From Halomonas sp. A11-A (lineage in GTDB: Bacteria > Pseudomonadota > Gammaproteobacteria > Pseudomonadales > Halomonadaceae): a stretch of 64,000 nt of DNA. A program made the position numbers and the translations under genes. Shown piece after piece: positions 9,970 to 15,704 of the stretch. Where the stretch lies: contig NZ_QGTM01000002.1 in NCBI RefSeq assembly GCF_003182195.1, positions 124,001-188,000 of the forward strand, in the 5' to 3' direction. How positions within the stretch are numbered: the first letter of the stretch is position 1; each line of letters starts with the position of its first letter. Under the pieces are notes generated by a model. The model did not search any database, was not told where the DNA came from, and saw nothing but the letters and a program-made list of their open reading frames with translations.

Positions 9970-10713
9970 CTACTTGGCCCCTTCCTCCTCGGCAACCTGA
10001 ATCAGCGACTCCAGGTCGAGGATATGCACCTCGCGGCCCGAGACCTCCACCAGGCCCTGGCTCTGGAAGCGGCCCAGGATGCGGCTGACGGTCTCCACCG
10101 CCAGGCCCAGGTAGTTGCCGATATCGGCCCGGGACATGGAGAGCCGGAAGCTGTAGGGGGAGTAGCCGCGCCGGCGGAAGCGGTCGGAGAGGCTGGTGAA
10201 GAAGCTGGCCAGGCGCTGGTCGGCGGTCTTGCGTGAGAGCAGGCGCATCATGCGACGGTCGTCGCGCAGCTCCTTGCTCATGCTGCGATAGAGCTGGCCG
10301 CGCAACTCGGGGAGGGACTCCGACAGCTGGTCCAGGCGATCGAAGGGAATCTCGCACACGGTGGTGGTCTCCAGGGCCACCACGCTGCCGGGATACTGCT
10401 CCTCGTCGATGCCGTCCAGCCCCACCAGCTCGCTGGGCAGGTAGAAGTTGGTCAGCTGGTCGTCGCCGCTGCCCTCGGTGGTCACCTGTTTGAGGCTGCC
10501 CGAGCGCACCGCATAGACGCTGGTGAAGGGACTGTTCTGGCGGAACAGGGTCTCGCCCTTCTTGAGGGGGGCGCGCCGGCGGATGATGGCGTCGAACTGG
10601 TCCATGTCCTGAACCTCGAGGGCCAGCGGCAGGCAGAGCGAGCTCAGGCTGCAGGTCTGGCAGCGAGTCTCGTGCAGTACAGAGTGCCGCCGTCCGGTCA
10701 GGCTATCGGCCAT
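9970..10713 (-). CDS. anr: Anr/FNR-family oxygen-responsive regulator
   Basis: Crp/Fnr transcription factor of 247 aa, expected to bind an oxygen-labile [4Fe-4S] cluster and activate genes under low oxygen. Cluster ligands are C18, C21, C27 and C120, the FNR pattern. The C-terminal HTH has 'SRADIGNYLGLAVETVSRILGRF', whose E..SR recognition helix reads TTGAT-N4-ATCAA sites. ATG at 10711-10713 follows AAGGAGGAGG. The downstream cbb3 locus (to higher coordinates, same strand) has a matching site before ccoN. In Pseudomonas the anr-hemN-cco neighbourhood is similar. The ORF overlaps nothing but nearly abuts ttcA. Confidence 0.93.
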   Translation of the reverse strand: MADSLTGRRHSVLHETRCQTCSLSSLCLPLALEVQDMDQFDAIIRRRAPLKKGETLFRQNSPFTSVYAVRSGSLKQVTTEGSGDDQLTNFYLPSELVGLDGIDEEQYPGSVVALETTTVCEIPFDRLDQLSESLPELRGQLYRSMSKELRDDRRMMRLLSRKTADQRLASFFTSLSDRFRRRGYSPYSFRLSMSRADIGNYLGLAVETVSRILGRFQSQGLVEVSGREVHILDLESLIQVAEEEGAK

Positions 10714-10808: not shown

Positions 10809-12197
10809 TCACGCCGCCGGGGTGGCCGCGGGGTCCAAGGCGGCGAGCAGCTGGGTCAGGCCCCAGAGCCCGTCGGGGGTCACCCGTAGGCGCTCGCCGT
10901 GGCGCTCGAGCAGCCCCGCTTCGCAGAAGGGGGCGAGGCGCTCGAGGGAACCGGCCAGGGCCGCGCCGGCGTCGCGCCCATGGGCCTGCGAGAGTGCGGC
11001 CGGGTCCAGTTCGCGCCGACAGGCGAGCGCCTCGATGGCATCCCGGTGCAGGCGGTCGACCGCGTCCAGCCGGTGGGCGGCGCCGGCGGGCAGCTGGCTG
11101 GCGTCCAGCGCCGCCTCGTAGTCGGCCAGGCTCAGGGCGTTGCGGGTCAGGGTATCGCCGACCCGGCTGAGGGCGGCGACTCCGAGGCCGACCTGGTCGC
11201 CGGGCGGGTAGGGGGTGTAGCCCTGCAGGTCGCGGGCCAGGTGGCCCTCCCCCAGGGCCTGGGCCAGGCTGTCATCGGGGCGGGCAAACTGACCGAGCCC
11301 GATATGCACGTAGCCGGCGTCATCCAGCCGCTGGCGAGCCGCCGCGAGGATCGCCAGGCGGGTGGCGGCGTCGGGCAGGTCCTCGGCGTCGATCTCGCGC
11401 TGGGGGCGGTAGCGCGCCGGCAGATGGGCGTAGCGGCGCAGGGTGATGCGCGCCGGGGTCATGGCGATCACCTGCTCCACGGTTTCGCCGAAGCCGTGGG
11501 GGGTCTGCAGCGGCAGGCCCACGGTCAGGTCGAGGTTGAGGGAGTGGAAGCCGAGGCGTTCGGCCTCGTCCACCAGGGACTCGGTCAGCACCCGGGGCTG
11601 GACCCGGTTGATTGCCTTCTGGACGCGCAGGTCGAGCTCCTGGACGCCGAGGCTCAGGCGGTTGAAGCCCAGTGCCTGCAGGTGGCGCAGGGTGAAGACA
11701 TCGGCCTCGCGGGGGGCGATCTCGATGCTGAAGTCGCGCTCTCGGGCGCCGGACAGCCCGAAGCGGGCGTCGAGGCGATCGAACAGGTCGCCCATCTGGT
11801 CCAAGGAGAGGAAGGCGGGGGCGCCGCCGCCCCAGTGCAGGCGCTGCACGGCCGGGAGGCGGCCCAGCAGGCGGCTCACCAGCACCATCTCGCGGTCGAG
11901 CCGCGTGAGGTAGGGCTCGGCCTGGCGGCTGTCCCGTGAGGGTACCCGCTGGGAGGCGCAGAAGCGGTAGGCCTGCCGGCAGAAGGGCAGGCGCACGTGC
12001 AGCGCCAGCGGCGCGCCGGGGGAGCGCTCGGTCAGGGCCCGGGTCAGCGCCGCGGGGCCGCCCCCCGTCGCCAGGCGAGCGGCGTCGGGGTAGGTGAGGT
12101 AGTGCGATCCGTCGTGGTCATGGTACTGCGTCGAGGGCCTGCCGCCGGCAGTCCAGGATGGCCCGGCGCGATCGTTGCGTGTCGCCTGAACAGGCAT
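10809..12197 (-). CDS. HemN-like radical-SAM paralogue with broken cluster motif
   Basis: The product (462 aa from ATG 12197, which has GGGAG 7 bp upstream; ATG 12230 is an alternative) aligns along its length with oxygen-independent coproporphyrinogen III dehydrogenase: 'LHWGGGAPAFL', 'GFNRLSLGVQ', 'NLDLTVGLPLQTP', 'QFARPDDSLA', 'LQGYTPYP'. The radical-SAM Cx3Cx2CxC motif is degenerate: C73 and C80 remain, but the other positions are Tyr77 and Ser82 ('PFCRQAYRFCAS'). The SAM-contacting Tyr six residues before the first Cys is His, and E. coli 'DHFARPDD' is 'GQFARPDD'. It occupies the hemN position of the anr-cco locus. Classical activity is unlikely; a regulatory or heme-binding role, or decay, is possible. 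Confidence 0.85.
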   Translation of the reverse strand: MPVQATRNDRAGPSWTAGGRPSTQYHDHDGSHYLTYPDAARLATGGGPAALTRALTERSPGAPLALHVRLPFCRQAYRFCASQRVPSRDSRQAEPYLTRLDREMVLVSRLLGRLPAVQRLHWGGGAPAFLSLDQMGDLFDRLDARFGLSGARERDFSIEIAPREADVFTLRHLQALGFNRLSLGVQELDLRVQKAINRVQPRVLTESLVDEAERLGFHSLNLDLTVGLPLQTPHGFGETVEQVIAMTPARITLRRYAHLPARYRPQREIDAEDLPDAATRLAILAAARQRLDDAGYVHIGLGQFARPDDSLAQALGEGHLARDLQGYTPYPPGDQVGLGVAALSRVGDTLTRNALSLADYEAALDASQLPAGAAHRLDAVDRLHRDAIEALACRRELDPAALSQAHGRDAGAALAGSLERLAPFCEAGLLERHGERLRVTPDGLWGLTQLLAALDPAATPAA

Positions 12198-12292
12198 GAC
12201 GGCGCTCCCGGCTATGGGTGTGCTCTCCATACTAGGGCGGCTTGGCGCCGGCGGCGTTGAGCTGCGTCAATCCGGCGTGGAATAGTGCCGAA

Positions 12293-12991: not shown

Positions 12992-13221
12992 CAGGGCTCC
13001 GGGTCGGCGTCGCGGCGCTCCTGCGCGGCGCGCTCGCGGGCCTCGCGGCGCCGCTGGCGCTCCTCGGGGGGGAGGTCGTTCTCGTCCTCGTCAAAGAGGA
13101 TGCGGTGGGCGGGGCCCTCCAGGTCCTCGAACTGGTCGTGCTTGACCGCCCAGAAGAAGGCCCAGACGGCCAGGCCCAGCAGGGTCAGCGACAGCGGGAT
13201 CAGCAGGTAGAGAATGCTCAT
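12991..13221 (-). CDS. ccoS: cbb3 oxidase maturation protein CcoS
   Basis: A 76-aa protein with one N-terminal transmembrane helix (residues 3-26) and the CcoS signature 'FFWAVKHDQFEDLEGPAHRI', followed by a charged tail rich in Glu and Arg that is longer than usual. CcoS is required to insert cofactors into cbb3-type cytochrome oxidase. Its ATG overlaps the ccoI stop in ATGA, and its stop overlaps the next gene, so it is inside one operon. Confidence 0.93.
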   Translation of the reverse strand: MSILYLLIPLSLTLLGLAVWAFFWAVKHDQFEDLEGPAHRILFDEDENDLPPEERQRRREARERAAQERRDADPEP

Positions 13222-15704
13222 GGGGTCACCCGGTCTGGTTCAGGGGATGGCGTCGGCAGCGGGGCGGCGGGCATGGCGCGGCTGCGGAAGCGGTTGAGGC
13301 GCAGGGCGTTGCCCACCACCACCAGGGAGCTGGCCGACATGCCCATGGCGGCCAGCCAAGGGGGCACCAGCCCCACGGCGGCGATGGGCATGGCGGTGAA
13401 GTTGTAGCACACCGACCAGATCATGTTCTGGCGCATCACCCGGCGGGTGGCGCGGCTGATCTCGACCGCCTCGACGATGCGTGACAGGCGCGGGCTGAGC
13501 AGGATGGCATCGGCGCTGGTGCGTGCCAGGTCGGTGGCGCCGTTCATGGCGATGGCCACGTCGGCACCGGCCAGCACCGGCACGTCGTTGATGCCGTCCC
13601 CGACCATGGCGACCTTCTCGCCCGCGGCCTGGCACTCGCGGATGCGCTCAAGCTTCGCCTCGGGGCTGGCGCCGCCGCGCCAGGTGGGGATGTCGAGACG
13701 CCGGGCGAGGTCGCCGGCGGCCTCGGGGGTGTCGCCGGAGAGCAGCTCGACCGCAAGGCCCAGCGCCTTGAGCGCTGCCACGGTGTCGGCGGCATCCTCG
13801 CGGATGCGGTCCTGCAGGGCGAACCAGGCCCGCGGCTCGCCCTCCTCGGCGAGCAGCAGCCACTGCCCCCTGCCGGGGGGAGCGAGGTCGGCCTCGGGGG
13901 CCGCAAACGCCGGCTTGCCGAGCCGCCAGCGGCGGCCGTCGAGGGTGCCCTCGAGGCCCTGGCCGGTGCGGCTGGCCATCTCGGAGGCGTGCACCGTGGC
14001 CAGCCGGTAGGGATGGAAGGCCCGGGCGATGGGGTGCTCGGAGCGCGCCTCCAGGGCGGCCGCCAGGGTGCGCGCCCGCTCGGCATCGAACCCGCCCAGG
14101 GGGCGCGTCTCCACCAGCGTCATCTGGCCGCTGGTCAGGGTGCCGGTCTTGTCGAGGATCACCCGGTCGACCTGGGAGAGCGCCTCGATGGCATCGGCGC
14201 GGGTCACCAGCACGCCGCGGCGGCGCAGCTGGCCATGGCCGGCGGTGAGCGCGGTAGGGGTGGCCAGGGCCAGGGCGCAGGGGCAGGTGACCACCAGCAC
14301 CGAGAGCATGATCCAGGGCATGCGCGCCGGGTCGATGAACCACCAGGCGATGGTGACGACGGCGGTGACCACCAGCAGGCGCAGCACGAAGAGGTGGGCC
14401 ATGCGCGCCGCCATCTGCGCCAGGCGCGGGCGGCTGGCGAAGGCGCGGTCGGTGAGGTCGACGATGCCGGCGACGCGGGCGTCGCGTCCGGCGTGGGTGA
14501 CGCGCACCACCAGGGGGCTCTCGATGTTCTGGCTGCCACCGGTGACGGTGTCGCCCAGGCGCCGGGTCACCGGCAGGTACTCGCCGGTCAGCATGGACTC
14601 GTCGAGGCTCGATTCACCGTCCTCGATCACCCCGTCGGCGGGCACGCCGTGACCGGGCTTGACCAGTACGCGGTCGCCGGCGGCCAGCTCGCTGGCCGGG
14701 AGGATGCGCTCCTCCCCCTCGTCGGTGAGGCGAATGGCCGAGAGCGGCAGGGCGCCGGCCATGGCGTTGCCGCTGTGGCCGCTGCGGCGTCGGGCGCGGG
14801 CCTCCACGTAGCGTCCGAAGAGCAGGAAGAAGGTGAACATCGCCGCCGAATCGAAGTAGACCTCGCCCTTGCCGGTGATCACCGCATAGCCGCTGGCGGC
14901 GTAGGCGAAGCCGATGGCCAGGGAGACCGGCACGTCCATGCCTAGCACCCTGGTGCGCAGGTCGCGCACGGCGTTGCGGAAGAAGGGTGCCGCCGAGAAG
15001 AACACCACCGGGGTGGTCAGGGCGAAGGAGAGCCAGTGGAAGAGGGCGTGGAAGTCCTCGCTGATGCCCTCGGGGCCGGCCACGTAGATGGGGATGGAGA
15101 ACATCATCACCTGGGCCATGCCCACCGCGGCGATGATCAACCGGCGCACGTTCATGCGCTCCTCGTGCTGCAGGCGCGCCTGGGCCTCGTCGGGCTCGTA
15201 GGGCTGGGCCTGATAGCCGATGGCGGCCATCTCGGCCAGGATCCGCGACAGCTTGACCGCCTCGGGGTCCCAGCTCACCCGCACCCGGTGGTGGGTCAGG
15301 TTGACGGCGCTGGAGGCGACGCCGGGCAGGGCATTGAGGCGGTGCTCGATCAGCCAGGCGCAGGCCGCACAGGTGATGCCGTCCACCGCCAGGGTGGCGT
15401 GGACCCGGCCACTGTCGTCGCCTTCCGCGTGCACGAACTGGCGCTGCAGCCCCGGGTCGTCGAACACCGCCCAGGTCTCGGCGCGCACGGTGTCGCGCTC
15501 GTCGGGGCGTTCCGGCAGCTCGGTGCGGAAGCGGTAGTAGCTCGCCAGGCCGCCATCGACGATGGCGTGGGCCACCGCCTCGCAGCCGGGGCAGCAGAGC
15601 GGCTGGCGGGTGTCATCGAGGGTGATCGACCAGGGGGCGCCGGGGGGAACCCGGCTGCCGCAGTGATAGCACTCCGCCGAGCCGACAGCGACAGCGTCAC
15701 TCAT
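13218..15704 (-). CDS. ccoI: Copper-exporting P1B-type ATPase CcoI/FixI
   Basis: P-type ATPase (828 aa) that moves copper out of the cytosol for assembly of the cbb3 CuB centre. It has an extra N-terminal metal-binding segment ('CYHCG' C12/C15 and 'CCPGC' 37-41), one HMA domain with 'GITCAAC' (C112/C115), TGE actuator motif (373-375), the transport-site CPC (474-476), phosphorylation motif DKTGT (518-522) and 'GDGIND' near 710. The double N-terminal metal site is typical of CcoI rather than CopA. It lies between ccoH and ccoS, 4-bp overlap with ccoS. Confidence 0.95.
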   Translation of the reverse strand: MSDAVAVGSAECYHCGSRVPPGAPWSITLDDTRQPLCCPGCEAVAHAIVDGGLASYYRFRTELPERPDERDTVRAETWAVFDDPGLQRQFVHAEGDDSGRVHATLAVDGITCAACAWLIEHRLNALPGVASSAVNLTHHRVRVSWDPEAVKLSRILAEMAAIGYQAQPYEPDEAQARLQHEERMNVRRLIIAAVGMAQVMMFSIPIYVAGPEGISEDFHALFHWLSFALTTPVVFFSAAPFFRNAVRDLRTRVLGMDVPVSLAIGFAYAASGYAVITGKGEVYFDSAAMFTFFLLFGRYVEARARRRSGHSGNAMAGALPLSAIRLTDEGEERILPASELAAGDRVLVKPGHGVPADGVIEDGESSLDESMLTGEYLPVTRRLGDTVTGGSQNIESPLVVRVTHAGRDARVAGIVDLTDRAFASRPRLAQMAARMAHLFVLRLLVVTAVVTIAWWFIDPARMPWIMLSVLVVTCPCALALATPTALTAGHGQLRRRGVLVTRADAIEALSQVDRVILDKTGTLTSGQMTLVETRPLGGFDAERARTLAAALEARSEHPIARAFHPYRLATVHASEMASRTGQGLEGTLDGRRWRLGKPAFAAPEADLAPPGRGQWLLLAEEGEPRAWFALQDRIREDAADTVAALKALGLAVELLSGDTPEAAGDLARRLDIPTWRGGASPEAKLERIRECQAAGEKVAMVGDGINDVPVLAGADVAIAMNGATDLARTSADAILLSPRLSRIVEAVEISRATRRVMRQNMIWSVCYNFTAMPIAAVGLVPPWLAAMGMSASSLVVVGNALRLNRFRSRAMPAAPLPTPSPEPDRVTP

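Follow-up and report, generated by a model that had tools for sequence, protein, structure and literature searches.

The window, that is, the whole stretch of 64,000 nucleotides of Halomonas sp. A11-A analyzed here, carries a gene for a HemN homologue beside anr. This anr-linked homologue is called HemN2 in this text. The genes and features of the locus are as follows, the altered copies counted in one line being those of relatives described below:

9970..10713, minus strand: anr, gene of an Fnr-type regulator (NF008365, 288 bits), the next gene downstream of hemN2
10809..12197, minus strand: hemN2, gene of the anr-linked HemN homologue, 462 amino acids from the ATG at 12197, with GGGAG 7 bases 5' of the start
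11952..11954, minus strand: Ser93 (TCC), at the place of the fourth Cys (Cys71, not a ligand) of E. coli HemN; this loss is common to the nearest relatives
11958..11960, minus strand: Cys91, equivalent to the cluster ligand Cys69, kept
11967..11969, minus strand: Tyr88 (TAC), at the place of the cluster ligand Cys66, which is lost in the window genome only among 42 altered copies
11979..11981, minus strand: Cys84, equivalent to the cluster ligand Cys62, kept
11997..11999, minus strand: His78, replacing HemN Tyr56
12257..12270, minus strand: Anr/FNR-type box TTGACGCAGCTCAA upstream of hemN2, a match to TTGAYN5TCAA
12293..12991, minus strand: conserved upstream neighbor of 232 amino acids, supported by synteny, with no NCBIfam match
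13218..15704, minus strand: gene of a copper-type P-type ATPase (TIGR01511, 468 bits)

We take the P-type ATPase to be CcoI from its position, and the 232-amino-acid neighbor is presumably TauE/SafE-like. The place of hemN2 beside anr and cco, pointed out in an earlier note made from the letters alone, is borne out by the profile matches of the neighbors and by synteny. In Pseudomonas, hemN adjoins anr, which is the same place as that of hemN2 in the window. An alternative in-frame ATG at 12230 gives an ORF of 473 amino acids (10809..12230, minus strand). Residue numbers are those of the 473-amino-acid form, in which C84, Y88, C91 and S93 correspond to C73, Y77, C80 and S82 of the 462-amino-acid form.

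The reading of HemN2 as a full-length HemN homologue with the motif C-x3-Y-x2-C-x-S holds by profile, alignment, predicted fold and the letters themselves. HemN2 scored 340 bits against the HemN equivalog TIGR00538, only 15 bits above the cut-off of 324.95, and E. coli HemN (PDB 1OLT) aligned with its residues 35-455 (E 1.1e-78). The predicted structure (33-row alignment, mean pLDDT 86, pTM 0.85, low confidence for residues 1-42) matched 1OLT with TM scores of 0.86/0.94 and an rmsd of 1.6 over 428 columns, and the second-best structural match reached 0.38/0.42. The frame of 473 amino acids is uninterrupted and thus is not broken as in a pseudogene. The closest named records are from Halomonas (at most 87% identity), and those farther away are from Vreelandella, Franzmannia, Bisbaumannia and Kushneria. 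TIGR00538 accepts HemN2, and automatic annotation would probably name it coproporphyrinogen oxidase despite the missing cluster ligand.

The motif reads C84-RQA-Y88-RF-C91-A-S93, with both replaced codons confirmed directly in the sequence, and Tyr occupies the second position of the CX3CX2C that holds the cluster ligands of HemN. The fourth Cys, which none of the 125 comparison rows lacks (26 other HemN, 27 HemN1 and 72 anr-linked copies from genomes without HemN1, the second HemN described below), is Ser93. The earlier note had stated that the protein lost its radical-SAM cysteines; two of the four are indeed gone, but just one of them, at the Tyr88 site, is a cluster ligand. Its statements that the SAM-contacting Tyr is His and that the Asp of DHFARPDD is Gly both hold: His78 stands where HemN has the Tyr in stacking contact with the second SAM, and Gly313 and Gln314 take the places of Asp288 and His289. 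HemN2 of the window therefore has no equivalents of Cys66, the fourth Cys, Tyr56, His58, Thr114, Asp288 and His289. It differs in 33 of the 116 columns that are conserved across the 125 intact HemN, and the copy of a same-species genome (G004) differs in 29. Equivalents of Glu145, Gln172, Arg184 and Asp209 are present; we assume roles in HemN for the first three, and Asp209 is presumably the counterpart of Asp196 of NocN. According to PMC13266988, both SAMs are bound by NocN Asp196, and catalysis depends crucially on Tyr56, which is stacked against the second SAM.

Relatives separate the two Cys losses. The same-species copy, 93% identical to that of the window, reads CRQACRFCAS, and so do G066, G061, G062 and G047. 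Hence Ser93 is found in all five nearest relatives readable there and Tyr88 in none. The earlier note had proposed checking whether orthologues share both changes; they share the Ser, but Tyr at the second ligand position occurs in 0 of 41 other altered anr-linked copies. Among the 42 altered copies (six truncated copies are set apart and the truncated G103 is included), Cys62 is kept in 42, Cys66 in 41 (the window copy being the exception) and Cys69 in 41 (G214 being the exception), so that 40 of the other 41 copies have all three ligands. The fourth Cys is kept in 3 of the 42, all three among these other 41, and lost in 39, and Tyr56 is kept in 21 and lost in 21. Where the tree contains altered copies only, a kept column undergoes about 10.6 changes on average, and the three ligands taken together undergo two. 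The lineage thus kept its radical-SAM cluster cysteines and one strain lost one ligand; a clade-wide loss of the radical-SAM cysteines is ruled out, since relatives keep the three cluster Cys. Because the ligand change is recent and private, it fits loss of function better than new function.

The window strain has a second HemN (HemN1) on contig 8, as the earlier note had suggested looking for, with an intact motif (CKSLCYYCAC), 37% identity to HemN2 and 583 bits against TIGR00538. It lies 5.6 kb from nosZ, in a region (contig 8, 78000-92000) with genes carrying nos-propeller (nosZ), Fer4_5, Rrf2 and ribonucleotide reductase (large-subunit gene) domains. We take the Fer4_5 gene to be NosR from its place. 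The Rrf2 ORF has an FNR-type box at its 5' end. The strain also has a HemF gene and HemW, the latter recognized by its motif and by a 171-amino-acid piece scoring 206 bits against TIGR00539 (cut-off 205.4). Since genes for HemN1, HemF and HemW are all present, heme synthesis in this strain should not need hemN2, and the idea that an essential, only hemN is decaying here is ruled out.

HemN1 is present in 111 of the 250 family genomes (called at 60% or more identity to the HemN1 of the strain, with 14 genomes whose best match is 49-53% not counted), nosZ in 68 and both in 67. In these 67 genomes HemN1 and nosZ are always on one contig at most 40 kb apart, and in 58 at most 12 kb apart. HemN1 also occurs outside nosZ carriers, since 44 of the 111 genomes with HemN1 gave no nosZ match. 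G264 is the sole genome among the 250 with nosZ but without HemN1, and the motif of its anr-linked HemN is intact, as expected if the anr-linked HemN serves denitrification there. Among the 90 genomes of the genus, 13 have HemN1 plus just one further match each, which is taken to be HemW, and show no anr-linked gene. In six others (G006, G011, G014, G022, G032 and G086) neither kind of HemN was found, but one weak match each in the HemW range (E 1e-14 to 1e-23); oxygen-independent coproporphyrinogen oxidation seems dispensable in them.

Across the family, 168 anr-linked loci were found among the matches listed, a set in which altered copies of other genera may be undercounted. An Anr-like ORF is present in all 168, this being the condition of selection, and a tauE-like neighbor in 148. 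Within the genus, most full-length hemN2 products beyond the nearest relatives are 46-63% identical to that of the window, and those of anr 78-92%. A tree of 220 HemN places the 167 anr-linked rows in a single clade and the 27 HemN1 rows, all of which have the Tyr and four Cys, in another. When a copy is called intact if it has the Tyr plus four Cys, the genomes without HemN1 hold, among the matches listed, 73 anr-linked copies, of which 72 are intact and one is cut by a contig end (G185, left out). Those with HemN1 hold, among the matches listed, 95 copies, 44 of them intact and 51 altered, three of the latter being broken or fragmentary. After six rows were dropped from tree and table (G185; the broken or fragmentary G060, G072 and G069; and G102 and G033, which have the longest branches), there are 46 altered and 44 intact copies with HemN1 against 0 and 72 without (Fisher 1.8e-15, with ancestry ignored). 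The independent-pairs test, which corrects for ancestry, found 7 pairs, with an average of 2.1 in the expected direction and 0 against (p 0.25-1), which is too few pairs. At least nine HemN1-less genomes with a HemN match (G114, G116, G131, G140, G150, G152, G162, G169 and G176, of genera g3 and g5) and G166, with 3 weak matches, are outside these counts; five other genomes of genera g3 and g5 have an intact HemN, counted as other HemN and outside the 72.

On the tree, the fourth Cys changed at least 8 times, and the Tyr and the cluster ligands at least 3 times each. The median root-to-tip distance is 1.31 for altered copies, 0.65 for intact copies without HemN1 and 0.61 for intact copies with HemN1. 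The median fraction of conserved columns kept falls from 0.99 in intact copies with HemN1 to 0.80 in altered copies with Tyr56, 0.66 in those without it and 0.37 in the six truncated copies. Many altered copies have lost the N-terminal PRYTS stretch, His58, Thr114, Asp209, Asp288-His289 and Arg308-Gln311, although the window copy retains Asp209 and every altered copy that retains Tyr56 has His58 and Thr114. Gly112, Pro115, Arg184, Gly213, Pro215, Gln217 and Asn339 are retained.

Selection was estimated as omega in a codon model (GY+F3X4) on start-trimmed frames. In the clade of the window, omega is 0.113 for hemN2, 0.017 for anr, 0.064 for the upstream neighbor and 0.043 for HemN1. For hemN2 it is 0.122, 0.131 and 0.138 in three other altered clades, 0.175 in a truncated clade of three, 0.127 in a mixed clade where five of the eight motifs are intact, 0.068 in an intact clade with HemN1, and 0.074, 0.098 and 0.108 in three clades without HemN1. 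The ratio of hemN2 to anr is 6.6-8.1 in altered clades, 7.0 in the truncated, 6.0 in the mixed, 4.3 in the intact clade with HemN1 and 1.6-2.7 without HemN1; part of this contrast is accounted for by anr, which is slower in the genus of the window (0.015-0.025 vs 0.036-0.057). An omega of 1 was rejected for three clades, that of the window, the K-type one and the truncated one, with doubled log-likelihood differences of 590, 882 and 149, and 16 neutral simulations built for the truncated clade gave 0.52-0.95 against the 0.175 observed. Pairwise NG86 values between the window strain and G004 (dN/dS 0.45 for hemN2, 0.03 for HemN1) come from stop-to-stop frames, which reach past the starts on the 5' side and give values that are too high for anr and tauE; the codon model and the branch counts below were relied on instead.

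Changes were also counted on the branches to the window strain and to G004, with G066 as outgroup (codons 424 and 455 of the hemN2 alignment count on both branches). For hemN2, the window branch has 25 replacement and 17 silent changes and the G004 branch 8 and 11; 25 versus 8 is significant (p 0.0046), but the replacement-to-silent ratios do not differ significantly (Fisher p 0.27). The corresponding counts on the window and G004 branches are 0 and 6 against 2 and 11 for HemN1, 4 and 8 against 1 and 9 for anr, and 2 and 5 against 2 and 4 for the upstream neighbor. Against neutrality, the window branch (25 replacements of 42 changes) gave p 0.001, 0.026 or 0.15 depending on the mutation model, its ratio being below the neutral expectation under two of the three models, and the G004 branch gave p 0.0002-0.017. 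The window branch is thus under weaker constraint, with neutrality unproven. From the intact frame the earlier note had argued for selection for another function rather than simple decay; purifying selection is indeed seen in the altered lineage as a whole (omega 0.11-0.14), but on the branch of the window strain itself replacements exceed those of the sister 25 to 8, and the outcome of the test against neutrality depends on the mutation model. What speaks directly for the functions that the note suggested (heme or porphyrin binding, oxidase maturation or regulation) is the location of the gene beside anr and cco.

Seven copies have no C-terminal domain (G030, G058, G035, G050, G033, G102 and G103) and end 5-23 residues past a GRLA-like stretch (judged by eye for G035), at the usual distance from anr (median 131 vs 152). 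Two or more separate lines have their stop at almost the same position: G103, whose sister G117 is full-length, and the G030 group are separate truncation events on the tree, and G033 and G102 are on long branches of unsure placement. Five of the seven, all except G033 and G103, have also lost the cysteine motif, and one truncated group without it is still under purifying selection.

The box upstream of hemN2 is the sole match in the window to TTGAYN5TCAA, which we take to be the Anr/FNR consensus. Since at least one match occurred in 14 of 100 shuffles (mean expected 0.18), the single match proves little. TTGAN6TCAA stands upstream of 40 of 41 altered copies, that of the window included, 31 of 44 intact copies with HemN1 and 37 of 72 without; with G103 here classed as truncated, it precedes 2 of 7 truncated copies and 2 of 4 broken ones. 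Because the box could also serve the downstream anr, its conservation is no proof that hemN2 is needed.

Among known systems, HemN (TIGR00538, PDB 1OLT) shares whole-length homology and fold with the window copy, which differs in having no equivalents of Cys66, Cys71, Tyr56, His58 and the DH of DHFARPDD. According to PMC11442138, HemW has no fourth Cys and carries heme. Most altered copies resemble HemW (TIGR00539) in keeping CX3CX2C while lacking the fourth Cys. The window copy, however, lacks the second cluster ligand as well and scores 73.5 bits against the cut-off of 205.4, which rules out HemW membership, and its genome has a separate HemW. Four altered full-length copies gave 73-91 bits with this model, below one intact copy (122) and HemN1 (160). 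PsgB (TIGR04419), by its name a HemN-related non-iron pseudo-SAM protein, is likewise a cluster-less HemN relative, but at 23 bits against a cut-off of 300 membership is ruled out and there is no specific relation. HemN2 of Pseudomonas donghuensis is also reported as one of several hemN copies in a genome (PMC11200716), and the name in common is a coincidence. Altered hemN2 in Halomonas is not named in the titles and abstract openings found among open-licence papers, which is weak evidence of absence.

We consider it likely that a redundant anr-linked HemN was released by the denitrification-linked HemN1 and came under weaker selection, and that the copy in the window, having lost a ligand, is probably dead or dying. 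On this reading the anr-linked HemN became redundant once HemN1, which stands beside nosZ in many relatives, arrived and took over oxygen-independent coproporphyrinogen oxidation. We infer the take-over and its direction from the presence of HemN1, its intact motif, its strong constraint and its linkage to nosZ, which are observed. The resident copy then lost residues of the HemN reaction in several lines, namely the fourth Cys, the Tyr in half of the altered copies and further conserved residues. Because the three cluster Cys, the Anr-type box and moderate purifying selection were kept, the product of the altered lineage is probably still an Fe-S protein, though its role would be smaller or different. 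In the window strain, the second ligand Cys turned into Tyr on its own branch, among the 25 replacement changes. With this ligand lost, formation of a normal [4Fe-4S] cluster and cleavage of SAM are very probably beyond the window copy, which is most likely inactive or in the course of being lost. Several results tell against this explanation. With ancestry corrected for, the association of alteration with HemN1 does not reach significance in the pairs test, 44 of the 95 HemN1-bearing genomes among the matches listed keep an intact anr-linked copy, and nosZ went unmatched in 44 of the 111 HemN1 genomes. Omega in altered clades (0.113-0.138) is little above that in intact clades without HemN1 (0.074-0.108), the mixed clade standing at 0.127. 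The ratios on the window and sister branches do not differ significantly, the former is below the neutral expectation in two of three models, and the Tyr codon might be a base-calling error.

It is less likely, though worth considering, that the altered HemN is a new Fe-S class, with or without SAM chemistry, which handles heme or porphyrin for the neighboring cbb3 oxidase in parallel to HemW, with the window copy as a natural variant. The place of hemN2 beside anr and cco genes, the box in 40 of 41 altered copies, the two ligand losses in 42 altered rows against 10.6 changes per average column, and omega values of 0.113-0.138 in four altered clades and 0.175 in the truncated, cysteine-less clade (0.52-0.95 in the neutral simulations built for the latter) are consistent with this, and the missing fourth Cys is a signature of HemW (PMC11442138). 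On the other hand, the four altered copies score lower against HemW than the one intact copy and HemN1 do, just 8 columns at an 80% threshold separate Tyr-less from intact copies, the 13 HemN1-bearing genomes of the genus mentioned above show no such gene, the box may serve anr, and the window copy itself is without one cluster ligand. The altered lineage may have gained a new function, of which the window copy is the weakest example.

It is improbable that the Tyr codon stems from a base-calling or assembly error and that the true protein has CX3CX2C followed by Ser as in its relatives. Tyr is one base from a Cys codon and occurs in no other examined row, and the window genome is a draft of 63 contigs; but the same branch has 24 other replacement and 17 silent changes in hemN2, and HemN1 with 0 replacements on it speaks against a generally error-rich assembly. 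Continued function of the window protein as a coproporphyrinogen oxidase, perhaps at a lower rate or in a specialized form, is very improbable. The score above the equivalog cut-off, the kept fold and the equivalents of Glu145, Gln172, Arg184 and Asp209 speak for it, the seven lost residues listed above and the 33 changed columns against it.

Starting from the release of the anr-linked HemN by HemN1, a bolder account may be offered as a tentative one, more doubtful than not. In Halomonas and its relatives, the arrival of HemN1 would have freed the anr/cco-linked HemN. Several parallel lines would have made of it an Fe-S protein without the two-SAM reaction, reaching a HemW-like protein by a route independent of that of HemW; some lines would have shed the C-terminal domain, with ends almost at one point, and some the cluster, staying selected as a cluster-free pseudoenzyme, and the window strain would represent the moment at which the first ligand goes. 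The parallel of altered copies to HemW in their motif is suggestive, although the four scanned at full length score below the intact one with the HemW model.

In conclusion, the HemN2 protein of the window is very probably no longer the enzyme that its annotation would name. This gives a practical warning, because the standard equivalog model passes a protein without one cluster ligand as oxygen-independent coproporphyrinogen III oxidase. In one family, stages of the retirement of an enzyme stand side by side: intact, with the HemN-specific residues gone but the Fe-S site kept, truncated, and absent. They form a natural series for asking what the fourth Cys and the second SAM do, and whether HemW-like proteins arise readily from HemN.
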